DNA of 14,794 nucleotides from Candidatus Hydrogenedentes bacterium CG07_land_8_20_14_0_80_42_17 (GCA_002780065.1 PEWQ01000012.1:1-14794), one strand, 5' to 3'. Positions 26 to 14,794 are shown, counted from the first letter of the stretch. Notes: a model not told the origin generated them from the sequence alone. Numbers and translations are program-made.

Positions 26-667
26 ATGAATTCAAAAATAAAAATATGCGGAATCACTACTAAAGAAGATCTGCTTTTTTCCGCCAAAGCCGGAGCGAAT
101 CTTCTTGGCATCAATCTCTGGAATAAATCGCCTAGAAGCGTGATACTCGAAGAAGCCGCCAAACTTTTACATGATTCTCGAAAAGAAATGGTTTTGCTTC
201 CCGAAATTGTTTTGGTATTTGTAGAACCAGAACTAGAATTTTTATCCGAATGTATCAAAGTTTTAAAACCGTCTGCCGTTCAAATTCATGGAGAGTGGAG
301 CAAAGAGATCGAAGTAAACGGAGTTAGAGTTATCAGAGCATTTCAGTTCGGGAGTGAAGAAGATATAGATGAAATTGAATCATGGCCGGGCAGTATGATT
401 CTATTGGACGCTCATGTTGAAGGAATGTATGGAGGAACAGGCAGAGCAATTTCAAAAGAACTTGTTTGTAAGGTAAAAAGACCTTACATCTTAGCAGGCG
501 GTCTGACTCCGGAAAATGTCGCAGGCGCAATAAAGCAGTTTGAGCCGTGGGGTGTAGATGTAGCGAGTGGAGTTGAAAATGCACCTGGAAAAAAGGATCA
601 CTCAAAGGTTAAAGCATTTATTGATTCAGTGAAAATGGGGACGGTTCCTATTTTACGCGGCGATTAA
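26..667 (+). CDS. trpF: Phosphoribosylanthranilate isomerase (TrpF)
   Basis: TrpF is the cytoplasmic (beta/alpha)8-barrel enzyme that converts N-(5-phosphoribosyl)anthranilate to CdRP in tryptophan synthesis. The family motifs are in order: KICGIT at residues 6-11 with the general-base Cys8, a SPR motif at 35-37, VQIHGE at 85-90, the general-acid Asp128 in LLDAH, GGTG at 136-139, and the phosphate-binding segments LAGGL (156-160) and GVDVASGVE (176-184). At 213 residues it has the usual family length, so it appears complete and functional. The ATG at 26 places KICGIT where it normally sits; a weak AGAAG lies just upstream. Only 25 bases precede it, so it is probably the distal gene of a trp operon whose other members lie outside the window; that is inference. 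Its 3' end overlaps the convergent coiled-coil gene by 15 bases. A slightly long tail follows the last barrel motif. Confidence 0.95.
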   Translation: MNSKIKICGITTKEDLLFSAKAGANLLGINLWNKSPRSVILEEAAKLLHDSRKEMVLLPEIVLVFVEPELEFLSECIKVLKPSAVQIHGEWSKEIEVNGVRVIRAFQFGSEEDIDEIESWPGSMILLDAHVEGMYGGTGRAISKELVCKVKRPYILAGGLTPENVAGAIKQFEPWGVDVASGVENAPGKKDHSKVKAFIDSVKMGTVPILRGD

Positions 668-979
668 TTTTTCTACTTTTTTTTCAAGAACTTCAAGACG
701 AACATCTAACCTCAAAACCTCATCAAACCTTCTATCCCTCTCGATAAGAATGTCAAGCTTACCATCCATGCGTGCAAAGCGTTCATCCATCTTTGCAAAG
801 CGTTCATCCATCTTTGCAAAGCGTTCATCCATCTTTGCAAAACGTTTGTCCATCTCAGCAAAACGTTTGTCCATCTCACTATGCAGTTCTTGTATCTCTG
901 TACGAACATCACGAATCTCAGGAACCAGCACATCAACCAGTACTTTTCGTAAAGCTTCAACAAAATCTTTTGCGTCCAT
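653..979 (-). CDS. Small coiled-coil protein made of heptad repeats, function unknown
   Basis: A 108-residue, highly charged protein with no signal peptide or membrane segment. Residues 1-35 form a lead-in helix (VEALRKVLVDVLVPEIRDV). About residues 35-75 are repeated seven-residue units of the type MDKRFAE / MDERFAK, with Met and Phe at core positions, as in a left-handed coiled coil. A further helical stretch ends in a Lys-rich tail. The start is an ATG with an AGGAG six bases upstream (986-990), so the gene is probably real even though three repeat units are identical at DNA level. It follows the GspB-like gene by 95 bases on the same strand and has its own candidate promoter. Short heptad-repeat proteins of this kind are widespread in bacteria and mostly uncharacterised. 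It probably self-associates or acts as a spacer; no enzymatic function is indicated. Confidence 0.75.
   Translation of the reverse strand: MDAKDFVEALRKVLVDVLVPEIRDVRTEIQELHSEMDKRFAEMDKRFAKMDERFAKMDERFAKMDERFARMDGKLDILIERDRRFDEVLRLDVRLEVLEKKVEKLIAA
758..880 (-). repeat. 21-base in-frame tandem repeat (coiled-coil heptads)
   Basis: Three perfect 21-base copies lie head to tail at 779-799, 800-820 and 821-841. They are flanked by diverged copies at 758-778, 842-862 and a partial one at 863-880. Each unit encodes one heptad (MDERFAK type), so gain or loss of a copy would keep the frame and change coiled-coil length by one heptad. There are no spacers, so this is not a CRISPR array. Confidence 0.9.
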
Positions 980-1074: not shown

Positions 1075-2094
1075 TTATTCATCATTCATCTTATGCCACT
1101 TTCCGTCGCGGAACTCAACATTCTCGTTGCCGTTCAAAATGTATGATGCATCAGGATTCGATGTAGGAACTAATCTGACTGTTCCGCCCTGTCCCCTGAC
1201 ACTGACACTTCCATCCTCTTTTGTTGTGACAGTAAAGGCTCCGCTTGAAGAAGTCGCAGTAACATTTTTTGTCGATATCAAAACAGAACCTTTTCCGGGT
1301 CGAACAAGCGCTTTAGCAGTCCCTGAAACCAAATGTAACGTCACTTCCTCCGAAACCTCTCCGTTTGGTTTTGACTGCCTCTCAAGCCTCGTGACTCTTG
1401 CATTGCTCGATTGAGCCAATTCGATGTTGGCATGGTCAAATGCCAGAGCAGTGCCGCCGTCAGCATCCGTAGAGATCTCCGAACCTACCTGCAAAGAGCC
1501 GCCCGGAACAGCAGACGCTCCATTGATTCTTGCCGCGCCGAAAACACTTTCCACTCGGCCCTCCGCCATCTCAATTGTGACTGCATTCGGCGGCAATTCA
1601 TTTGGATTACTCAATTCTGTTCCATGATAAACCGGGATGTCTCTGAAATCCTCTATGTATGGAGTTTGTTCCACCGGCTGAGGAATTCCATTTCTCAATT
1701 GAGCATCCTGAATTATCGGAGCCGCAAGCCCGGTATTCTGAAGCGATGAAGGAGTTAACCTCGTTTGCGGCAATGAAGAAACATCTCGCATATTTTCATT
1801 CGGATTCGTGTATTCTCCAAGCACAGGATTAAGTTGCGGGTATTCAGCAGTAATTTGCCGCGAAGAAATATTTTTCTCGGAAGGCGGCACAATCACTGTT
1901 ATGTCTCGAGGTTTAGTCAGAAGATATGTCAATATCGCGGCTAGCGCAATTCCGCCTACAGCCAATACTGCAGGCACCCACGCGGGTATTTGCTCTTCGA
2001 TAAAAAAATGTTCTTCCTGCTCTTCAACCTGTTCGTGCTGAACCGCAGACATCTCCTCATCTCTACGTTTCAACGCGTCGTGAATGATACTCAT
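1075..2094 (-). CDS. GspB-like single-pass membrane protein with FecR-type domain
   Basis: A 339-residue protein. Residues 1-14 (MSIIHDALKRRDEE) match the N-terminal signature of GspB/ExeB-type proteins. A charged cytoplasmic segment follows, then one membrane segment at about 39-60, a Pro/Asn-rich linker (65-170), and a FecR-like beta domain at about 178-310 (GRVESVFG, then LQVGSEIST, then the LVSGTAKALV and VTATSSSGAFTV strands). This topology puts the FecR domain in the periplasm. The ATG overlaps the stop of the upstream GspA-like gene by 4 bases (ATGA), so the two are almost certainly co-translated and probably interact, as GspA and GspB do in type II secretion, where they help insert the secretin through peptidoglycan. 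Classical GspB does not, as far as I recall, carry a FecR domain, so the partner or role may differ. FecR regulator or stress-sensor roles are less likely because no sigma factor is adjacent. Confidence 0.75.
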   Translation of the reverse strand: MSIIHDALKRRDEEMSAVQHEQVEEQEEHFFIEEQIPAWVPAVLAVGGIALAAILTYLLTKPRDITVIVPPSEKNISSRQITAEYPQLNPVLGEYTNPNENMRDVSSLPQTRLTPSSLQNTGLAAPIIQDAQLRNGIPQPVEQTPYIEDFRDIPVYHGTELSNPNELPPNAVTIEMAEGRVESVFGAARINGASAVPGGSLQVGSEISTDADGGTALAFDHANIELAQSSNARVTRLERQSKPNGEVSEEVTLHLVSGTAKALVRPGKGSVLISTKNVTATSSSGAFTVTTKEDGSVSVRGQGGTVRLVPTSNPDASYILNGNENVEFRDGKWHKMNDE

Positions 2095-3692
2095 TTCGTC
2101 AGTCCCGGAAAATCATGGTTGGAGCGTTTCACAAGTGCGCACCATGTCAAAGGTCCAACAATGCCGTCCGCAGGAATGCCAATACTTTTTTGAAAAAGAA
2201 TCACATTTGAAGGATCAGATCTTACTAAACCTCTGGTCCTATTCATAGCCGCACTCAAAAATTCGGACACTCGCGGATCTGCCGCAGGGTTTGCTGGAAG
2301 AGCTAAATGAGACGGCAAAGGAATAACAGCAGAAACTAATATCGATTCGTTTTCGCTAATTCTTGCAACTTTAAAAACTCGATTAGGAAATTGAGTTGAA
2401 TCAAGCTTGGAATCGAAAAATTCAAAACTTGTAGGACTGGCTCCTATCAGTAGTCTTGGCCCTGCCTCATCATCAATCAGAGCAGGCAATCCTATTTTCG
2501 AAAGAGTTGAAAGATTCGTAACAATTTTGATTCCTGTCATTCCAGCAGATTCAATAGTTTTTGCTCCGTCTGACTTCACGCCCCATATCCTCAAGACTTC
2601 ATTCAAAACCTCATCGGTTTTATTCTCGGCAGGAGCAGTCTCCAAAATCTTTTCCTGCACGTCAGTCGCAATTTCATTCTTATTTTCATTCGCAGTATTC
2701 AGCGGCTGTTGAGTCTTTCTGGTTCCGATTCCAATCAGTAAAACAACACAAGCAATAAGAGCCGCGGCAACGGCGGATTTAAGGTTTGCCCTTTTCACCC
2801 GAGCATAATCAGTTGCTTCAGTTTTATCTTCACACAAAACATTTCCGAGCGCTTGCTCTGAAAGCCCTTCTGAGCCCGAAGCCGGTCCTTCATGATCCAT
2901 GATCGCTTTCAGAGCTAGTTCACCGTCAATAACTTTTGTCTTACACGCGTAAGCCGCAAGCATGCATTTGTCGCAAATAATATTTATTAGCCGCGGAGTT
3001 CCTCTCGTATATCGGGCGATCGCTTCAATGGCAGAAGGCTGAAATTCGACGCAGTTCTCGTTTCCCGCAACATCGAGCCTATGCTTTATGTAATTCAGAA
3101 TTTCACCGCGTTCAAGAGGAGTAATATGATATCTTACAGCTATTCTCTGTCGAAGCTGTTCCATTTTTGGAAGTTTCAGAATTTCGTTAAGTTCAGGCTG
3201 ACCGACAAGAATTATTTGGAGCAATTTTTCCTGCTCAGTCTCCAAATTCGACAGCATTCGAATAGATTCTAAAACTTCCGGCTCTAAATTCTGCGCCTCA
3301 TCAATAATCACTGCGACAGGATTTCCCAGCCTCGCCTCTGAAATAAGAAAAAGATTCAGCGTATCGAGAAGAACCTTTTGAGAAGGATTTTTGATCTTCA
3401 TATCGATATTTAAATCGTCGATTATCGCATGGAGCAGTTCCGACTTATTTAGGCTCGGATTGAGTATTACGGCCGTTTTAGTATCAGAGCCGAGCTGATT
3501 GAGAAGTGATCTGCAGAGCGTAGTCTTGCCCGTCCCGATCTCTCCCGTTATCACGATGAAACCTTTTCTCTCCTTTATTCCATACAGAAGCGACGCAAGA
3601 GCTTCTTCATAGCGATTTGACTTGAAGAGATACCTTGTATCCGGAGTCATTCTGAACGGTTCATCTTTCAAACCAAAATAATCTTTATACAT
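2091..3692 (-). CDS. gspA: GspA/ExeA-like AAA ATPase with periplasmic peptidoglycan-binding domain
   Basis: A 533-residue protein with ExeA/GspA architecture. It begins with the family opening MYKDYFGLKDEPF. The AAA domain has Walker A GEIGTGKT at 50-57, Walker B AVIIDEAQ at 127-134, VGQPEL at 163-168, and the arginine-containing RQRIAVRYHI segment. One membrane helix lies at about 305-323. The periplasmic part has a region at 361-440 resembling the C39-like domain of ExeA proteins (LRIWGV) and a PG_binding_1 repeat at about 485-522 (FQKSIGIPADGIVGPLTW). In the known system GspA uses ATP in the cytoplasm and binds peptidoglycan outside, helping secretin assembly. Here it sits 20 bases after the MinD-like gene, with AAGGAAAG as ribosome-binding site, and overlaps the GspB-like gene. 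No secretin or other Gsp gene is in the window, so the client machine is unknown. Confidence 0.85.
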   Translation of the reverse strand: MYKDYFGLKDEPFRMTPDTRYLFKSNRYEEALASLLYGIKERKGFIVITGEIGTGKTTLCRSLLNQLGSDTKTAVILNPSLNKSELLHAIIDDLNIDMKIKNPSQKVLLDTLNLFLISEARLGNPVAVIIDEAQNLEPEVLESIRMLSNLETEQEKLLQIILVGQPELNEILKLPKMEQLRQRIAVRYHITPLERGEILNYIKHRLDVAGNENCVEFQPSAIEAIARYTRGTPRLINIICDKCMLAAYACKTKVIDGELALKAIMDHEGPASGSEGLSEQALGNVLCEDKTEATDYARVKRANLKSAVAAALIACVVLLIGIGTRKTQQPLNTANENKNEIATDVQEKILETAPAENKTDEVLNEVLRIWGVKSDGAKTIESAGMTGIKIVTNLSTLSKIGLPALIDDEAGPRLLIGASPTSFEFFDSKLDSTQFPNRVFKVARISENESILVSAVIPLPSHLALPANPAADPRVSEFLSAAMNRTRGLVRSDPSNVILFQKSIGIPADGIVGPLTWCALVKRSNHDFPGLTK

Positions 3693-3712
3693 TCAAACTT
3701 TCCTTTCTTCTT

Positions 3713-4864
3713 TTATAGTGCCGCCGCGGTATTCAGAGCAGAGGAACTGCCTTTGCCGAACAGTCGCTTTAAATAAGAGCCGAAAGAAAAATAATTTCGC
3801 TCGATTTCAAAATCAGTATTCTCTTCAACTCTCTGAGCAATATTTCTAACCCAATGCGAAGCATCGCAATCGGGATATCTCTTCACGAACGGCGCCGCTT
3901 CCTTAACAGATTTGACAACACACGCATCTTGAAGAACCGGACCGAGAAAAGTTATTTCTATGCCAAGCTCACGACGCGCCGAGTCGCGCATCTTTTTGGC
4001 AACCTCTAAACCTTCGTTGAAATCTTCTGCGCGGTTCACAATCAATTTCGGACGAAACGCATTAAGAATTGCCTTGAGCGTTTTGTACTCCATAAGTTCT
4101 CCGCTCTTTTTTAGCTCATTGAGCAGTCCCGGAACGGAAGGTATCTCAAGCATGCCATTCTCAAGAGAATCAAGAAGTCGAGTCGAGACCGGCATGTCCG
4201 AGGTCTCCTTCTTAAGTTTTCTCATCAATGTAGCTCGTATGAATAGAAACGAATCGCGCATCGCAGTCGGCTCAGGATTCGTAATCACAATGCCCGAATT
4301 AACCATCGAGAAAAAATCTATAACTTCGAGATGAACAGAAGCTCCGAGGTCCAAGACTATGAAACGCGAGCGCAAGGAGCGAAGGTTCCGCAAAAATTTC
4401 TGACGCTGTTGATACTGAAAATGAGACAGCGTCATTGATGGTGTGGAAGAGCCGGAAAGGAAATTGAGCCCTGGATACTGAGTCGGCGAGACTGCGGACG
4501 AAAGAGAATCTATTCGTTTGGAAATGAAATCGTCAATCGTTCGTCTATGTTTTACTCCAAGGATTATGTCCGCGTTCGGAAGCCCGAAATCACAATCGAC
4601 AAGAATCACTTCATCTTTGGAATTCTTTTCCTTCAATCTATCAGCCAGAGCAATTGAAAGGCTGACTGCGATATTTGTCTTACCAACCCCGCCTTTGCCT
4701 GACGCAATAGGAATAAGTTTAGGTTCAAATTCAAGCGGCTCCTCATTTTCAATCGGTTCAATAAATGACGGACTTGATTCAGGGTTCGACTGGTAAACAG
4801 GAGCTTCAAAAAGATTTTGATTAGGAGTTTCTATGCGCTGTAATAATTCAAGAATCTTGCTCAA
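3713..4864 (-). CDS. MinD/ParA/FlhG-like positioning ATPase with C-terminal amphipathic tail
   Basis: A 383-residue protein. After an unconserved 50-residue N-terminal extension comes a deviant Walker A motif GKGGVGKT (56-63) with both signature lysines (57 and 62). It is followed by VDCDFG (Asp90 region), the Walker B-like IVLDLG (169-174) and the VITNPEPTAMRDSF segment (193-206) typical of MinD/FlhG proteins. Such ATPases dimerise on ATP and position cell-division, flagellar or pilus machinery. Near the end, YLKRLFGKG (364-372) closely resembles the membrane-targeting helix of MinD, although about 11 residues follow it. The start is TTG: no ATG lies near, an in-frame TAA occurs at 4883-4885, and AGGGTGA sits just upstream. 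It leads the GspA/GspB-like operon, so it may place that complex at a membrane site. It is not a septum MinD by context (no minC or minE), nor a chromosome ParA (no parB). Confidence 0.8.
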   Translation of the reverse strand: MSKILELLQRIETPNQNLFEAPVYQSNPESSPSFIEPIENEEPLEFEPKLIPIASGKGGVGKTNIAVSLSIALADRLKEKNSKDEVILVDCDFGLPNADIILGVKHRRTIDDFISKRIDSLSSAVSPTQYPGLNFLSGSSTPSMTLSHFQYQQRQKFLRNLRSLRSRFIVLDLGASVHLEVIDFFSMVNSGIVITNPEPTAMRDSFLFIRATLMRKLKKETSDMPVSTRLLDSLENGMLEIPSVPGLLNELKKSGELMEYKTLKAILNAFRPKLIVNRAEDFNEGLEVAKKMRDSARRELGIEITFLGPVLQDACVVKSVKEAAPFVKRYPDCDASHWVRNIAQRVEENTDFEIERNYFSFGSYLKRLFGKGSSSALNTAAAL

Positions 4865-4945: not shown

Positions 4946-4974
4946 TTGGCATTCAGCAAAAGACGGAATAGAAT
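4946..4974 (+). promoter_or_regulatory. Candidate promoter for the ROK-ppx-ppk operon
   Basis: TTGGCA (4946-4951, 5/6 match to -35), a 17-base spacer, then TAGAAT (4969-4974, 5/6 match to -10). Transcription would start near 4981, about 34 bases before the ROK ATG. This is the best promoter match in the window. It also argues against starting the ROK protein at the TTG at 4946, which lies inside the -35 box. Confidence 0.65.
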
Positions 4975-5001
4975 AAACTTTAGTTCAAATAATCGACTTA
5001 G

Positions 5002-5007
5002 AAAGGG
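5002..5007 (+). promoter_or_regulatory. Ribosome-binding site choosing the ROK kinase start
   Basis: AAAGGG at 5002-5007 lies seven bases before the ATG at 5015. It selects this ATG over the TTG at 4946, which is in frame but has no such site and falls within the promoter. Confidence 0.6.
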
Positions 5008-5014
5008 CAAAAAA

Positions 5015-6010
5015 ATGGGCGGGAACGAGAAGAACGGGAATAAAAGCTACTGGATCGGAGTCGACATCGGCGGAACCAAGATTCAAGCAACCCTCTTTGG
5101 CGATTCCTTCAAACCTTTATTGAGCGAGCGCAAAAAGACCAAAGGACAAGAAGGAAAAGAAGAGGGTATGAAGCGCTTGAGCGAAGTTATATCGATCGTT
5201 ATGAAGAATATCTCTCAAGACAAAGTCAAAGGGATCGGAGTCGGATGCGCAGGGCCGCTGAATCTCGAAGATGGAAGCATTATCGAAGCGCCGAATCTCG
5301 GATGGAAGAACGTGCCCGTAAAAAAGTTTCTAGAAAAAGAATTCAAAGTGCAGGTCGAAATATCCAACGATGTTGATGCCGGCACATACGGAGAATACAA
5401 ATGCGGCTCAGCAAAAAAAGCGCGGTCAGTGCTCGGGATTTTTCCAGGAACAGGAATTGGCGGCGGATTTGTTTATGAGGGCAAACTTATCCGAGGAAAA
5501 AATTCTTCATGCATGGAGATCGGGCACTTATGCGTAATGCCTTCCGGTCCGATCTGCGGATGCGGTCAGAAGGGCTGTTTAGAGGCTGTAGCGTCAAGAC
5601 TGGCAATAGCTTCAAACATTGCCGCCGCGGCATATCGCGGGGAGGCGCCTTCAATTCTCGAGGAAGCCGGAACTGACCTAAAAAAAATCCGAAGCAAAGT
5701 TATTGCGAGATCAATCGAACGCGGAGAAAAGACTGTGGAAGAGATTGTCCGCCGCGCGGCGGCGTTTATCGGCAAAGCCGCCGGTATAGCTGTAAACCTT
5801 CTCGCTCCAGAAATTATTCTGCTCGGAGGCGGAATGATCTCAGCGATGCCCGGAATCTTTCTCGAAGAGGTAAAAAGTTCCGCAGAAAAAACAGTTATGC
5901 GATCATTTCGCGATACATTCAAAGTAGTCACTGCAAAGCTCGGTGACGACGCGACTGCACTCGGTGCGGCGGCGTGGGCAAAAGAAGTTATCGAAGGAAA
6001 AGAAAAATGA
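5015..6010 (+). CDS. ROK-family sugar kinase, probably glucokinase
   Basis: A 331-residue cytoplasmic kinase, the normal ROK length. It carries the phosphate-1 loop IGVDIGGTKIQATLF (14-28), the phosphate-2 loop FPGTGIGGG (143-151), the catalytic Asp119 in SNDVDAG, the sugar-binding EIGH (168-171), and the zinc motif CGCGQKGCLE (181-190) with Cys181, Cys183 and Cys188, completed by His171. GGGMISAM (271-278) forms the adenosine-side loop. The start at 5015 is set by ribosome-binding site and promoter. It is first in an operon with ppx and ppk, and its stop overlaps the ppx start by 4 bases. Glucose is the likeliest substrate because the sequence resembles bacterial ROK glucokinases, but fructose, mannose or GlcNAc cannot be excluded. 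The phosphoryl donor is probably ATP. The gene partners raise polyphosphate as an alternative, which the sequence alone does not settle. Confidence 0.88.
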   Translation: MGGNEKNGNKSYWIGVDIGGTKIQATLFGDSFKPLLSERKKTKGQEGKEEGMKRLSEVISIVMKNISQDKVKGIGVGCAGPLNLEDGSIIEAPNLGWKNVPVKKFLEKEFKVQVEISNDVDAGTYGEYKCGSAKKARSVLGIFPGTGIGGGFVYEGKLIRGKNSSCMEIGHLCVMPSGPICGCGQKGCLEAVASRLAIASNIAAAAYRGEAPSILEEAGTDLKKIRSKVIARSIERGEKTVEEIVRRAAAFIGKAAGIAVNLLAPEIILLGGGMISAMPGIFLEEVKSSAEKTVMRSFRDTFKVVTAKLGDDATALGAAAWAKEVIEGKEK

Positions 6011-7557
6011 CAAATCAGTTTGCGGTCATCGATATAGGCTCTTCTTCGATAAGACTGGCAATCGCTCAAAGTAAATCCGAAGGCGGCTTCTCGGTCATTG
6101 AATCCTTGCAGAAGCCGATAGCTCTTGGAAAAAACACATTCGTTCAGGGAAGCATAAATAAATCTAACATTGAAGAATGTGTTCAGATTTTGAAAGGTTT
6201 TTGCAAAGTGCTCGGTGAATATCATGTTCCGCAGGAATCGATTCGAGTTGTTGCGACAAGCGCTGTCAGAGAAGCATCGAACAAAGAAGCACTAATCGAC
6301 AGAGTTTACATTGCAACGGGTCTGCAGATATATCCTATCGATGAAGCTGAGATCACAAGATTGACATATCTTGCTCTGAGACAAACTCTAGCAAGAGGAA
6401 AAAATCTGCTGGGTGAAAATGCCGATATTGTCGTCACAGAGATCGGAGGCGGCAGCACAGAGCTTCTGCACCTGATTGGAGGCAAAGTCTCCTTCGCTCA
6501 AACATTTCCTATCGGTTCAATAAAACTTTTTGAAATGGTTGAAGACGTAAAAAGTTCAACTACGAAAATACGAAACCTGCTCGAAAAAAACATCGGCAGA
6601 ACTATTACCCAAATCAAGCAGAGTGTAGATTTTAAAGAGACAACGCAGCTCATGATAATGGGCGGCGACGCTCGGTTCGCGGCTCGGAATATTATTGAAG
6701 ATTGGAATCCCGAGAATATTGCAAAGATTCAGATCTCTTCGTTGAGTAAACTTGTCGACGAAATTTTTACTCTCAATGTCGACGAGATAGTTAAGCGTTA
6801 CAGAATAAGTTACACCGAGGCGGAAACAGTCGGGCCTGCACTGCTGTTCTATTTGTGTCTGGCTCGCGCCGCCAAATCGAAACAGATTATGGCCGCGGCA
6901 TGCACAATGCGCGACGGCATGCTGATCGAATTTGCCGAAGGCGGAGCGTGGTCGCCCGAGCTTACGGAACAGATTGTAAACTCTGCGCTCGAAATCGGAA
7001 AGAAATATGAGTTCGACGAAGCTCACGCGCGGCATGTTGCAGAACTCTCTTCAAAAATATTTCTCGCGCTGTCAAATGAGCACAGGCTCGATTCTCGTCA
7101 CGGATTCTTGCTTTACCTCGCCGGCATTCTTCATGAGATAGGAAATTTCGTCTCGAATAGAAGTCATCATAAACACTCGATGTATCTGATTTCATCCAGC
7201 GAAATCTTCGGGCTCGGAAGACGCGACCATCTTCTGGTCGGAATCATAGCAAGGTATCACAGACGCGCATCGCCTAAGATATCTCACGAAGGATATATTC
7301 TTCTGAATCGGGACGAGCGAATTCTGGTTTCAAAGCTCGCAGCAATACTCAGAGTTGCGGACGCGCTCGACCGTTCTCACAGTCAGAGAATTCAGGAAAT
7401 TAAATGCATTGTCGATGACAATAAATTCGTGATTTATGTAAATGATATAGACGATATCGCTCTGGAACAACTCGGTCTGAAGCAAAAAGCAAACATGTTC
7501 GAAGATGTTTACGGACTGAATGTTCTGTTGAGAAAAGCTCCAACGGTAAAATCTTGA
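6007..7557 (+). CDS. ppx: Exopolyphosphatase, Ppx/GppA family, with C-terminal HD-like domain
   Basis: A 516-residue protein of the full-length Ppx type. It has a two-part ASKHA phosphatase core (about 1-310) and a C-terminal HD-like helical domain (about 320-515). Visible motifs are VIDIGSSSIRL (phosphate-1, 7-17), RVVATSAVREA (80-90), the catalytic-Glu region IDEAEITRLTYLAL (111-124), EIGGGSTELL (phosphate-2, 145-154) and MRDGMLIEF (301-309). The HD-like domain shows LAGILHEIG (371-379). The family removes terminal phosphate from polyphosphate, or converts pppGpp to ppGpp. Its place directly before ppk favours polyphosphate. The ATG at 6007 overlaps the ROK stop (ATGA) with AAGGA eight bases upstream; an in-frame GTG at 5974 lies inside the ROK gene and is less likely. 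The phosphate-2 motif has Glu145 where Asp is usual; a conservative change, but at a functional position. Confidence 0.9.
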   Translation: MTNQFAVIDIGSSSIRLAIAQSKSEGGFSVIESLQKPIALGKNTFVQGSINKSNIEECVQILKGFCKVLGEYHVPQESIRVVATSAVREASNKEALIDRVYIATGLQIYPIDEAEITRLTYLALRQTLARGKNLLGENADIVVTEIGGGSTELLHLIGGKVSFAQTFPIGSIKLFEMVEDVKSSTTKIRNLLEKNIGRTITQIKQSVDFKETTQLMIMGGDARFAARNIIEDWNPENIAKIQISSLSKLVDEIFTLNVDEIVKRYRISYTEAETVGPALLFYLCLARAAKSKQIMAAACTMRDGMLIEFAEGGAWSPELTEQIVNSALEIGKKYEFDEAHARHVAELSSKIFLALSNEHRLDSRHGFLLYLAGILHEIGNFVSNRSHHKHSMYLISSSEIFGLGRRDHLLVGIIARYHRRASPKISHEGYILLNRDERILVSKLAAILRVADALDRSHSQRIQEIKCIVDDNKFVIYVNDIDDIALEQLGLKQKANMFEDVYGLNVLLRKAPTVKS

Positions 7558-9665
7558 TGAGCGAATCAATATTTTTTAACCGCGAGATTTCATGGCTCGA
7601 GTTCAACCACAGGGTCCTGAAAGAGGCTGAAGACGAGTCAAATCCGCTTTTGGAACGACTGATGTTTCTCGCAATATCCGCATCCAATCTCGATGAGTTT
7701 TTTATGGTTCGTGTCGGCGGCCTGATGATTCTTAAATCCGAAAAAAAGAATTGGCTCGATATCTCCTCTATGACCGTTGATGAACAACTTGATTTGATAG
7801 CCTCAACAACTCGAACAATGATGGAAAGCCAATATAAATGTTATCTCAATTCTATAGAACCCAATCTAACAAAAGCCGGAATAAAAAGAGTTAAGCCGAA
7901 CGAATTAACCTCAGAACATAATTCATATCTCGAACGGCTTTTCGATGACGAACTTTTTTCAGTTATCTCGCCGATCGCAGTAATGCCCGAACAGGATTTT
8001 CCTCTGATTACAGGAAGAATTCTCCACCTTGTCGTCAGATTCAAAGCCGGAGAAGGCAACGATGACCGTCCCAAGTTTGCGATAATTCCTTTCAGTAAAT
8101 CCATGAATCGTTTCATCACTCTGCCTTCGGGCACAGGCTACGAGTTCATTCTGCTTGAAGATGTAATCATGCGTTTTATCGACAAGATTTTTCCAGGCGA
8201 ACCTATAGCGGAATGCGTTCCGTTTCGGATAATCAGAAATGCAGATATCGGACTGCACGAGGATGAAGTGGATGACATGCTCAGAGAGATGGAAGAGATA
8301 ATTCGCGCCAGAAAACGAAGCGACGCGGTAAAGATCGAGATTGCCGCACCCGTTACGAAGCAGACCGTTTCGTGGCTCCAGAAAAATCTCAAGGTGTCGG
8401 ATTCCGGTGTGTATGCGGTTCCGGGCTCGCTCGAACTCTCCTCGTTACGGACTATTGCAAATGTCGGCGGATTCAATGAACTGAAGTATGAAATATGGCA
8501 GCCTCAGCCTCATCCGAATATTGATCCGCAGGAAAGCATGTTCGATTCGATCACTCGAAATCCAATTCTTTTGATTCATCCGTATGATTCCTTTGACCCG
8601 ATTGTAAGGCTTATCGAAGAGTCTGCCGATGACCCCGATGTTCTGGCAATAAAGCAGTGTCTCTACAGAACGAGTCCTAACAGCCCAATCGTTGCAGCTC
8701 TGGGCAGAGCCGCACGAAAAGGCAAATACGTCACAGCGATTGTGGAATTAAAAGCGAGGTTTGACGAGGAGCGAAATATCGAATGGGCGAAAAAATTAGA
8801 GGACGACGGAGTCAACATAATATACGGCATCCGCGGATTGAAGACTCACTCAAAGATTCTTATGGTTGTCCGAAGAGAGCCTCAGGGAATTGTCAGATAC
8901 GTTCACTTCGGAACAGGTAATTACAATGAAATTACTTCGAGGATTTATAGCGATGTCAGTTACCTCACGACCGATGAGGATTTGGGTTACGATGCGGCCG
9001 TATTCTTCAATACAATAACCGGAAATACTCAGCCGCGCAGATTCCGAAAAATCGAAGCCGCGCCGATCGGGTTGCGCGAAACGCTTCTTTCATTGATTGA
9101 CGGAGAGACAGGAAGAAAACTCGAAGGGCACAAGGCCGCGATAATGGCAAAACTTAATTCACTTGTCGATCCTCAAATCATCGAGGCGCTCTACCGAGCA
9201 TCAAAAGCCGGCATCAAGATACAGCTCAATGTCCGCGGCATCTGCTGTTTGAAGCCGGGAGTGCAGGGACTTAGCGAAAATATTTCGGTAGTAAGCATTG
9301 TTGACAGGTTTCTCGAACATGCGAGAATTCTCTACTTTTATCACGGCGGAGAAGAAAAGGTTTTTATCTCCAGCGCAGACTGGATGCCGAGAAATCTGGA
9401 TCGCAGAATCGAACTGCTCGTTCCTGTTGAAGACACTCAAAGTAAGCGCAGACTCATCTCCACATTGAAAACTTATTTCAATGATACGGCAAAAAGTTGG
9501 ACGCTTACTCAATTAGGAAATTACGAGCAATTACTCTCTTCCGGCTTGAGAAAGAAACCTTTTAGAAGTCAGGAGTTTTTATTCAAATTGCGATGCGCCG
9601 AAACACAAGAGCTTCGAAAGAAAAAACTCGATGCCTTCGAGCCGCTACGGCCGGCTGAAGAGTAA
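7557..9665 (+). CDS. ppk: Polyphosphate kinase 1 (Ppk1)
   Basis: A 702-residue enzyme, typical Ppk1 length. It reversibly transfers the gamma-phosphate of ATP to polyphosphate, usually at the inner membrane or in granules. The N-terminal domain opens with FFNREISWLEFNHRVL (6-21) and FLAISASNLDEFFMVRVGG (37-55). The catalytic part has IKQCLYRTS (365-373), KTHSKI with the phosphorylated His431 (429-434), HFGTGNYNE (450-458), and FLEHARILYF (585-594) with the second conserved His588, followed by ISSADWMPRNLDRR. All key residues are present. The ATG at 7557 shares one base with the ppx stop (TGATG), implying translational coupling. The ribosome-binding site is weak; a TTG one codon upstream is a less likely start. 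With ppx beside it, the operon sets polyphosphate turnover. Its stop codon lies in the stem of the terminator that follows. Confidence 0.97.
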   Translation: MSESIFFNREISWLEFNHRVLKEAEDESNPLLERLMFLAISASNLDEFFMVRVGGLMILKSEKKNWLDISSMTVDEQLDLIASTTRTMMESQYKCYLNSIEPNLTKAGIKRVKPNELTSEHNSYLERLFDDELFSVISPIAVMPEQDFPLITGRILHLVVRFKAGEGNDDRPKFAIIPFSKSMNRFITLPSGTGYEFILLEDVIMRFIDKIFPGEPIAECVPFRIIRNADIGLHEDEVDDMLREMEEIIRARKRSDAVKIEIAAPVTKQTVSWLQKNLKVSDSGVYAVPGSLELSSLRTIANVGGFNELKYEIWQPQPHPNIDPQESMFDSITRNPILLIHPYDSFDPIVRLIEESADDPDVLAIKQCLYRTSPNSPIVAALGRAARKGKYVTAIVELKARFDEERNIEWAKKLEDDGVNIIYGIRGLKTHSKILMVVRREPQGIVRYVHFGTGNYNEITSRIYSDVSYLTTDEDLGYDAAVFFNTITGNTQPRRFRKIEAAPIGLRETLLSLIDGETGRKLEGHKAAIMAKLNSLVDPQIIEALYRASKAGIKIQLNVRGICCLKPGVQGLSENISVVSIVDRFLEHARILYFYHGGEEKVFISSADWMPRNLDRRIELLVPVEDTQSKRRLISTLKTYFNDTAKSWTLTQLGNYEQLLSSGLRKKPFRSQEFLFKLRCAETQELRKKKLDAFEPLRPAEE

Positions 9666-12060: not shown

Positions 12061-14794
12061 TTACTTTATGATCATTATCTTCTTTACAACACGCTCGCCG
12101 TTTGAACTCGTTAAGATCGCTATGTACATTCCAGAAGCAACTTCTCTTCCGTTGTCATCGTGTGCGTCCCAGTTGTATCGTCCCCATGCCGAGTTCTTTG
12201 CAAAGTGAGATACGAGTCTTCCCGCAATATCGTAAATATCAATCGTCACCTGTTGCGGCAAACTGTCGAATATAATGCCTGATGTCGGATCCGATGCGTT
12301 GTATGCCCTTCCGTTCTTATCCACGTTATCGTATGGGATAAACGGATTCGGATATACAATTACGTTCTTGAGATTTCCAGCCGCCGGCACCGGTGAAAGC
12401 ACCGCAAAGAGCGTAAAGTGGTTCACCTCGGCTCTGACTACATTCATAACCGGATCGACCTGAGAAGTCGGAAGCGGTATCCATGCTCCGGTCACTTCGT
12501 CGTAATAGCAAATCTTGAGATCAGCTTCAAGAACTGTTGTCTGACCAACATAATCATTTTCGAGATCCGTATCCGCATAAGAAATAACAACTATCAGATT
12601 CGAATCGAAATTTCTCAACCCGTCTTCGCGTTCGTACTCGACCGCCCTTCCTGAAACTTCCGCAACCCACGCTCCGCCAAGCGGCGTCGTCGTCGGCACA
12701 GTATCGAGCACTGTCACGCGAATCCAAACAGTCTCTGAAACTGCGCCAGGCGGTATTATCGCTCCGTTTCCGTCCGCAATCATAACTTTATTCGTCGTAT
12801 CAGGTCTAATCTCTTGCCGTCGAACATGATAAAAGGTTGAACCGTCCCGATATTCGTGAACTGTTGAATCTGTCGGATCTACCGTTATCCGATAATATGA
12901 CGGGTTCGGATCCGTGTATCCGTTTGAATCCGTAGCCCGAGCTCTTACATCGTATTTCTGCCCCGAAATCAAATCAGATATATCCCAGTAAAATCCCCAG
13001 AACGGCGGCTCAGTATCCGGATTCGCAGAATACACTGATGAAGTGCATCTGCGCCATGCGCCATTCGGAGCTGTTCGGTATTCATAAAGAACTTGCTGAT
13101 ATGAATCTCCATAAGTTGAAATAATGGACAACTCATTGCCGGCGGCGCGGATCTCAAAGAGCGGAGTATCGATAATTTCCGCAAGCGACGGCGAGGTATC
13201 AACAACTGTAAGCTGTATCGTCGTTGTCGAAACATTGTTTGATGCATCGACTACATAAACCAAAATGTCGTACGTTCCGCCGGAAATATCAGAATCCAAA
13301 GTCACCGTCGCAGTCCAGACCGAATCAGTCGAAGGTGGCGATGATGAAGGCGTAAAGAAATATGAATCAGTCAAACCGAATCCGGAAAGATCGGCAAACA
13401 CTGTATCCACATACGCACTGTCAGTGACATACACTGTAAGAGTCACAACACTAGTTCCGGAATTCGATGAACTTGTCGGAAGTATTGCCGACGATTCAGT
13501 CACAGGCGGAGCGGTGTCTGCTCGAACAATGAAACTGTCGTAAGTCGGCGAAGAAGTCGATACATTGCCCAAAAAGTCGTATGCATAAACTCGCCAGTAA
13601 TAAGTCTGAGATGCAAGCAAAGGAGTCCAGTGGTCGGTGTCGCCCGCAAGAATCACTTCGGAATCAGCTATCGTCGCAAAATTGCTCACCGTCGAAACTT
13701 GAATGAGATAACTATCAAGCCCTACAATCGTATCAGTCGATTCAAACCATTTGAGCAATATTGGTGAAACAACTGAAGCTCCATTATGAGCAAAAAGTAT
13801 CGTTCGAGTCGGAGGCGCAGTATCAATCGTAAAACTGAAATCGAAATTGCAGACAGTCGTATTCGAATTATTGTCACGCGCTGTCACACGCCAATAATAA
13901 GTATTGTTGGCGGATAAAATTGCGGAATAACTAGTCTCTGTCATCCATGACGTATCTAATACTGACGCCGCAAATGTTCCCGCTGTATCGACTTGGAGTC
14001 TATAGGTCACAGGCGGAGAAGTATCGTCTATGGCATCTTCCCAGTTGAGCGTTATTAAAGTAGAAGATGTAATATCGAGATCAGCCGGACTCAAAAGATC
14101 AAATGCATTCGGGCCTATCGTATCTCCTATCGGCACTCGGAATGAATCAGTCGAAGAAGTCGAAACGTTTCCGAGCGTATCATAAGCCAGAACGCGCCAA
14201 TAATATGTGTCGGTCGTAAGAACTCCGGTAACGTAATTTGTATCGGGCGGAATCAAAGTCGCAGAATCCAGAAGCGATACAAAAGTTCCAACTGTATCTA
14301 TCTGAATATTGTAATACGTCAATCCCGAGATCGAGTCTTGGGAAGCGCTCCATGAAAGCGTCACAGGAGGAGTTGTATAGGCTCCTGAATATTTCGTCAG
14401 TATCGGCAAAGTCGGAGGCGCAGTGTCGATTCTAATAATTCTCGAAGAGACCGCTGTGGTGTTTCCGACATTGTCAACCGCAACTACTCTCCAATAATAA
14501 GTATCGTTTGCTGAAAGTGTTCTCGACCCTGATGTCAACGGCGTCGATGAATCCACAATAGGTGCAGCAAAAGTGCTCACCGTATCGATCTGAAGCAGAT
14601 AATACGCAAGCCCTGAACCGGTATCTGAAGCAGAATTCCACGAGAACAAAATTATCGTCGATGTAGTATCGAGACTATTTGCAGGCGAAATCAGAGTTCC
14701 GGCAATTGGTCCTGCTGTATCGGCATATACCTTCCACGGCGCATTTGCCGCGGCAACTGTGTTCCCGGAATTATCGACTGCAATGACTCGCCAC
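12061..14794 (-). CDS. Large secreted repeat protein with T9SS/FlgD-like C-terminal domain (5' end beyond window)
   Basis: The frame stays open to the window edge, so the N-terminus and any signal peptide are missing; 910 residues are visible. The first part holds Fn3-like repeats of about 100 residues, each with a TYYWRV-A-D-GN strand and joined by DTAPP-type linkers (see the repeat entry). Then come Ig-like domains (around 13150-13520), a segment with GAIIPPGAVSETVWIRV reminiscent of ZU5-like domains (near 12700-12770), and a DEVTGAWIPLP ... VNHFTLFAV module (12390-12530). The last 104 residues (12064-12375) have VYPNPF, VTIDIYDIAGRLV, YNWDAHDDNGREVASGMY and end VKKIMIIK: a type A sorting/FlgD Ig-like domain that in Bacteroidetes and relatives directs type IX export and surface attachment. 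It is Ser/Thr/Asp-rich and Cys-poor. Likely a surface adhesin or structural protein; no catalytic domain is seen in the visible part. Confidence 0.85.
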   Translation of the reverse strand, partial: WRVIAVDNSGNTVAAANAPWKVYADTAGPIAGTLISPANSLDTTSTIILFSWNSASDTGSGLAYYLLQIDTVSTFAAPIVDSSTPLTSGSRTLSANDTYYWRVVAVDNVGNTTAVSSRIIRIDTAPPTLPILTKYSGAYTTPPVTLSWSASQDSISGLTYYNIQIDTVGTFVSLLDSATLIPPDTNYVTGVLTTDTYYWRVLAYDTLGNVSTSSTDSFRVPIGDTIGPNAFDLLSPADLDITSSTLITLNWEDAIDDTSPPVTYRLQVDTAGTFAASVLDTSWMTETSYSAILSANNTYYWRVTARDNNSNTTVCNFDFSFTIDTAPPTRTILFAHNGASVVSPILLKWFESTDTIVGLDSYLIQVSTVSNFATIADSEVILAGDTDHWTPLLASQTYYWRVYAYDFLGNVSTSSPTYDSFIVRADTAPPVTESSAILPTSSSNSGTSVVTLTVYVTDSAYVDTVFADLSGFGLTDSYFFTPSSSPPSTDSVWTATVTLDSDISGGTYDILVYVVDASNNVSTTTIQLTVVDTSPSLAEIIDTPLFEIRAAGNELSIISTYGDSYQQVLYEYRTAPNGAWRRCTSSVYSANPDTEPPFWGFYWDISDLISGQKYDVRARATDSNGYTDPNPSYYRITVDPTDSTVHEYRDGSTFYHVRRQEIRPDTTNKVMIADGNGAIIPPGAVSETVWIRVTVLDTVPTTTPLGGAWVAEVSGRAVEYEREDGLRNFDSNLIVVISYADTDLENDYVGQTTVLEADLKICYYDEVTGAWIPLPTSQVDPVMNVVRAEVNHFTLFAVLSPVPAAGNLKNVIVYPNPFIPYDNVDKNGRAYNASDPTSGIIFDSLPQQVTIDIYDIAGRLVSHFAKNSAWGRYNWDAHDDNGREVASGMYIAILTSSNGERVVKKIMIIK
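13576..14794 (-). repeat. Array of Fn3-like repeats of about 100 residues
   Basis: The invariant Trp codon of the (Y)YWRV motif lies at 14791, 14491, 14197, 13891 and 13594, spacings of 300, 294, 306 and 297 bases (about 98-102 residues). Each unit has a SW or NW strand, a Y-L-Q-D-T strand (YLLQIDTVSTF, YNIQIDTVGTF, YRLQVDTAGTF, YLIQVSTVSNF), the TYYWRV-A-D strand with GN or SN after it, and a DTAPP or DTIGP linker. Copies are diverged at DNA level, so they are old duplications. At least four full units are visible and a fifth starts at the edge; more may lie outside. Confidence 0.85.

Follow-up and report, generated by a model that had tools for sequence, protein, structure and literature searches.

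A MinD-family ATPase gene beside a GspA-GspB-like gene pair with a predicted FecR-fold domain in Candidatus Hydrogenedentes

A 14,794-nucleotide stretch of Candidatus Hydrogenedentes bacterium CG07_land_8_20_14_0_80_42_17 (GCA_002780065.1, PEWQ01000012.1:1-14794; the whole of this stretch is called the window here) carries on its minus strand, at positions 1075 to 4864, three genes in the order MinD-like ATPase, GspA-like ATPase, and GspB/FecR-like protein. We propose with moderate confidence that these genes encode an envelope assembly factor of the GspAB type, to which a MinD-family regulator is dedicated. The proposal is supported by the preservation of the trio in G001, which together with the genome of the window (G000) represents the phylum in our searchable set, and by the GspA identity of the second protein, the FecR fold of the third, the lack of a T2SSB domain above the cut-off, and the statistics of an N-terminal helix shared by GspA partners. 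Further support comes from a second MinD-GspA pair present in both genomes and from the clade formed by the two MinD proteins.

The coordinates of the trio were confirmed, and the open reading frames (ORFs) bear out the first-pass annotation of the window, which had described three adjacent genes with a 20-base gap (MinD-GspA, 3693 to 3712) and a 4-base overlap (GspA/GspB-FecR, 2091 to 2094). The predicted features, some of which rest on a position-specific scoring matrix (PSSM) for the partner helix, are as follows.

3713 to 4864, minus strand: MinD/FlhG-type ATPase of 383 amino acids with a TTG start and an intact Walker A motif, GKGGVGKT (profile and PDB matches; 63% identical copy in G001)
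4823 to 4864, minus strand: N-terminal amphipathic helix of MinD, MSKILELLQRIETP, like the helix of GspA partners (GspB-trained PSSM, rank 28 of 862)
3752 to 3793, minus strand: C-terminal amphipathic stretch of MinD, YFSFGSYLKRLFGK, a putative membrane-targeting sequence (kept in G001; hydrophobic moment, 0.49)
2091 to 3692, minus strand: GspA/ExeA-type ATPase of 533 amino acids with a cytoplasmic AAA+ domain, one transmembrane helix, and a C39-like and peptidoglycan-binding periplasmic part (profiles and AlphaFold model)
2883 to 3692, minus strand: AAA+ domain of GspA, residues 1 to 270, Walker A and B intact (Pfam; AlphaFold 2 [AF2] predicted local distance difference test score of about 90)
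2733 to 2798, minus strand: transmembrane helix of GspA, residues 299 to 320 (AF2 helix and hydrophobic stretch)
2091 to 2732, minus strand: periplasmic part of GspA (profile of 21 GspA proteins against PDB 4g54, profile positions 349 to 534, E 3.6e-22)
2133 to 2204, minus strand: degenerate PG_binding_1 half-domain of GspA (Pfam PF01471, E 0.0028, below the cut-off)
1075 to 2094, minus strand: GspB-type protein of 339 amino acids with a FecR-like periplasmic domain (sequence, PSSM, AlphaFold model, and Foldseek)
2053 to 2094, minus strand: N-terminal GspA-partner helix of GspB-FecR, MSIIHDALKRRDEE (PSSM score 15.4, rank 24 of 862)
1915 to 1980, minus strand: transmembrane helix of GspB-FecR, residues 39 to 60 (AlphaFold model)
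1090 to 1578, minus strand: FecR-fold domain of GspB-FecR, residues 173 to 335 (Foldseek to 4m0n, 4m0h, and 6ovk, E 5.4e-5 to 9.2e-4)

Judged by its sequence, the second protein is firmly placed as a bona fide GspA/ExeA relative. It matches AAA_22 (E 8e-29), and its AAA+ domain, in which the Walker motifs are intact, scores 299.8 bits against TIGR03015, the model for XrtA-associated/GspA ATPases (cut-off, 324.5). The AlphaFold model contains the AAA+ domain, one membrane helix, and a folded periplasmic part, and the 21-member GspA profile headed by this protein matches the solved GspA periplasmic domain 4g54; the order of a single membrane helix followed by a C39-like periplasmic domain is that of GspA. 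The protein thus has the makeup of the family apart from a weak peptidoglycan-binding domain.

The third protein is modelled with a short N-terminal helix, one membrane helix, a long linker of low confidence, and a beta domain. Its short cytoplasmic helix, its single membrane helix, and the position of its gene next to gspA are those of GspB. However, the HR/T2SSB domain (PF16537) was not matched in this protein, nor was it found above the cut-off in either genome of the phylum, and because this defining periplasmic domain is missing, the protein is not a GspB by the test of the family itself but is GspB-like at its N-terminus. By sequence, FecR stayed below the threshold (E 0.021), while the modelled domain matched the FecR/PupR anti-sigma structures, in agreement with the first-pass view that a FecR domain stands in for the usual periplasmic domain of GspB. 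Given these folds, the protein could instead be an anti-sigma-type sensor that reports the state of the envelope rather than a structural scaffold, which we judge very unlikely, as the N-terminus carries the GspB-type helix and no anti-sigma domain and no extracytoplasmic function (ECF) or other sigma factor is encoded among the window genes. Passages of a study of GspB proteins (PMC9239104) describe a varied domain makeup with seven archetypes, and in those passages there is no mention of a FecR form or of a MinD partner. A pattern scan of both genomes for further GspB proteins found only that of the trio as a clear gene start.

The first protein has CbiA/ParA/MinD Pfam matches above the cut-off, a MinD fold with the deviant Walker A motif KGGxGK, and FlhG/FleN as its nearest PDB structures; its match to TIGR01968 (minD_bact; E 1.6e-20, 73.5 bits) is below the equivalog level of 212.9. 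The TTG start is supported by the first 13 residues, which are identical in the two genomes. The amphipathic C-terminal stretch looks like a membrane-targeting element and resembles that of Escherichia coli MinD, and homology suggests that the protein may act as a positioner. Like the FlhG-FlhF and MinD positioning systems, it combines a MinD/FlhG fold with amphipathic segments at both ends, but it lacks the DQAxxLR helix of the FlhG of its own genome, and its neighbor is GspA and not the signal recognition particle-type GTPase FlhF. A flhF-flhG pair, with the DQAxxLR-type FlhG N-terminus, is encoded elsewhere in both genomes, and since these are separate genes, the MinD of the trio is not the flagellar FlhG.

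The conservation of gene order, a check proposed in the first-pass annotation, held in the only searchable relative: the trio is present in the same order in G001 (contig C126, locus L054), with identities of 63% for MinD, 54% for GspA, and 33% for GspB-FecR. In that genome, about 0.4 kb separates MinD from GspA, and GspB-FecR has an earlier end. A second MinD-GspA pair, whose genes overlap and which has no GspB, occurs in each of the two genomes (C58, L052:8116-10775 in G000; C62, L053:9206-11946 in G001). The MinD proteins of the trio (MinD1) and of this pair (MinD2) form a sister clade among the MinD homologues sampled (support, 99/97). For the corresponding ATPases, a GspA1-GspA2 clade was rejected (approximately unbiased test, p 0.003), whereas a clade of all three GspA proteins was not (p 0.53); as GspA2 groups with GspA3, a simple duplication of the MinD-GspA pair is ruled out, and a duplication of the pair followed by one of GspA only is possible. 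GspA3 (L078:5129-7847) has a full peptidoglycan-binding domain (E 1.2e-12) and is divergent from gspC in G000; its G001 counterpart (L100) has FecR-like and tyrosine-kinase-like genes upstream, and both adjoin glutamine synthetase. About 5 kb from GspA3 in G001, a possible protein with the GspA-partner helix, LSVIRRALREAEKAFG, was seen (L197, G001:C129:75825), although its start codon is uncertain.

GspB-type proteins start with MS(Y/F/I)ILxALKKxExxR, and other GspA-type ATPases have tetratricopeptide repeat (TPR) and tyrosine-kinase partners with a similar start, so that a common motif, MSxIxxALxK, is found on GspA neighbors that differ in their C-terminal part (T2SSB, TPR, or tyrosine kinase). 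When a PSSM trained solely on GspB N-termini was used to score 862 ORFs, ranks 1 to 27 went to membrane proteins of the partner type (GspB, TPR, FecR, tyrosine-kinase, or similar), and no unrelated ORF scored higher than MinD1 of the window, which came directly below them (rank 28). Background-like scores (-4.4 to -19) were obtained for 18 MinD homologues that do not adjoin a GspA gene. A new census took in 60 GspA loci, of which 49 were kept (the ORF caller had missed GspA in the other 11); the helix was above the threshold in 29 of the 76 same-strand GspA neighbors versus 3 of the 306 other ORFs (Fisher p 9e-20, in a sample in which related genomes are not independent). The ATPase domain of ExeA is required for the ExeA-ExeB complex (PMC4098917), which fits a cytoplasmic docking role. 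In the part of the literature covered, neither a link between MinD and GspA nor the common helix was described.

These data also bear on whether the two downstream genes are an ordinary GspAB pair for the type II secretion system (T2SS) of this genome, with MinD upstream of them by chance. GspAB pairs that serve a T2SS are familiar (PMC9239104; PMC4098917); gspC, gspD, gspE, and gspF homologues are present in the genome, and G001 has a wider gap between MinD and GspA. We nevertheless find this explanation unlikely, given that each genome has two separate loci at which MinD adjoins GspA, that both MinD proteins have a helix-like N-terminus without a counterpart in MinD homologues elsewhere, and that it is a different GspA that adjoins gspC.

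Among known systems with a MinD-superfamily ATPase next to a GspA-type ATPase, the closest is the kinase/ATPase pair associated with XrtA (TIGR03018 and TIGR03015) in XrtA/PEP-CTERM systems, in which an ATPase of this superfamily with an MSKIEEALKK-type N-terminal helix adjoins a GspA-type AAA+ ATPase. On this model, the trio would serve the export of exopolysaccharide or another surface polymer and not a secretin, with MinD in place of the tyrosine kinase and GspA in place of the XrtA ATPase. The TIGR03015 score given above fits such a role, as do three loci (L101, L103, and L137) where a TIGR03018-type kinase with the same helix stands beside a GspA-like ATPase, and the tyrosine-kinase-like and FecR-like genes near the third GspA of G001. 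Yet the known pair has a polysaccharide-type tyrosine kinase, whereas the trio has a MinD/FlhG-branch ATPase, with a C-terminus like a membrane-targeting sequence, and a GspB-like protein. Its GspA carries the transmembrane helix and the periplasmic GspA part, the N-terminus encoded by the third gene is of the GspB type, MinD matches the tyrosine-kinase models weakly, and polymer genes were not found flanking the trio in either genome; we therefore regard a role in polymer export as improbable.

GspA-GspB (ExeA-ExeB) of type II secretion is an assembly factor that aids outer-membrane channels in crossing the cell wall. The trio shares with it the domain order of GspA (AAA+, one membrane helix, and a C39-like and peptidoglycan-binding periplasm), the N-terminal and membrane helices of GspB, and adjoining, overlapping genes. 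It differs in having a FecR fold for HR/T2SSB, a MinD gene at the head of the group, no nearby secretion genes, and a degenerate peptidoglycan-binding domain. In clusters of the MSHA pilus (MshL-MshM-MshN), a GspA-type ATPase is likewise followed by a protein with MSxIxxAL and a membrane helix. Loci of this TPR type (for example, L098, L102, and L115), which we take to be MSHA-like, differ from the trio in that the periplasmic part is TPR and not FecR, pilus or secretin-like genes adjoin in L098 and L102, and there is no MinD.

From gene order, folds, motif statistics, and conservation in the two genomes, we infer the docking, positioning, and client of the proposed MinD-regulated GspAB factor as follows. 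The cytoplasmic AAA+ domain of GspA would be the hub on which GspB-FecR (by MSxIxxALxK) and MinD (by the diverged MSKILELLQR) dock through the same type of N-terminal amphipathic helix. The periplasmic part of GspA would grip the peptidoglycan, and the FecR domain would contact the envelope client, replacing the usual contact between HR and the secretin N0. ATP-bound MinD, held at the membrane by its C-terminal helix, would set the place or time at which the GspA complex assembles on wall and secretin. The first-pass idea that the trio places and opens the wall for a machine is a fair hypothesis. There would then be a direct link between a positioning ATPase and the factor that gates the wall for machines of the secretin type. 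To our knowledge, the placement of secretin assembly factors in the envelope has been little studied.

More generally, but only tentatively, GspA-type AAA+ ATPases might be a general docking hub at the inner membrane, to which GspB, a TPR pilus factor, a polysaccharide tyrosine kinase, MinD, or a FecR-type GspB would bind by an interchangeable MSxIxxALxK helix. Only in the trio were two helix-bearing partners, one of them MinD-type, seen at one GspA. The common helix would offer a simple, testable rule for the choice of partners by GspA-type ATPases, many of which have no assigned role, and, should it hold, this rule would be useful more widely.

The client would most probably be one of the three machines of the genome that depend on a secretin (T2SS, type IV pilus-like, or Tad). 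G000 encodes three secretins and several T2SSE-type ATPases. One secretin lies with gspE and gspF (C24), another with Tad genes (C88), and the third on a contig (C204) that also has pilin-like genes and pilus-type ATPases. The C204 secretin is very large (L080:6116-10759; >1500 amino acids), with repeated segments like the secretin N-domain and a helix-hairpin-helix-like C-terminal end.

Several observations weigh against a MinD-regulated GspAB factor. The first-pass annotation had linked the trio to secretion or pili, but the listing of its flanks gave no secretin, pilus, or exopolysaccharide gene in either genome. It had also assigned a peptidoglycan-binding end to GspA; although the GspA identity is firm, PG_binding_1 is a weak half-domain (residues 497 to 520). 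The MinD1 version of the helix is weak, and MinD2 (PSSM rank 32) lies below three unrelated ORFs and is at most suggestive. No MinD was among the helix-bearing partners of the 49-locus census, in which no gene had the MinD Walker motif. Moreover, an N-terminal amphipathic helix could bind the membrane rather than GspA. Finally, the MinD family was matched with an E value of at most 1e-28 in 62 of the 386 genomes scanned; among the 61 other than G000, only G001 has it beside GspA, and none of the 60 outside the phylum has a strong match in this position, although contig ends could hide a few. Wide conservation is thus ruled out in this sample, and the trio is a lineage-specific variant found only in the two-genome phylum.

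A different pairing, of a MinD-like ATPase having a MerR/helix-turn-helix (HTH)-like N-terminus with a cytoplasmic ExeA-like AAA+ ATPase, was seen in three genomes of two families (L099:6755-8857, L104:4444-6554, and L082:6715-9025). It was rejected as the same module, as the MinD N-terminus is HTH-like and has no partner helix.

There are no secretion genes among the immediate neighbors of the trio in the window. Upstream and divergent from it, genes for a ROK kinase, a Ppx/GppA-HD phosphatase, and a polyphosphate kinase overlap head to tail (4946 to 9665). Downstream are trpF and a 108-amino-acid coiled-coil ORF (653 to 979, minus strand) with near-perfect tandem MDERFAK/MDKRFAE heptads. At 12061 to 14793, the window contains a large, open-ended protein with immunoglobulin (Ig)/fibronectin repeats, the C-terminal domain of which resembles FlgD-Ig and type IX secretion sorting domains.

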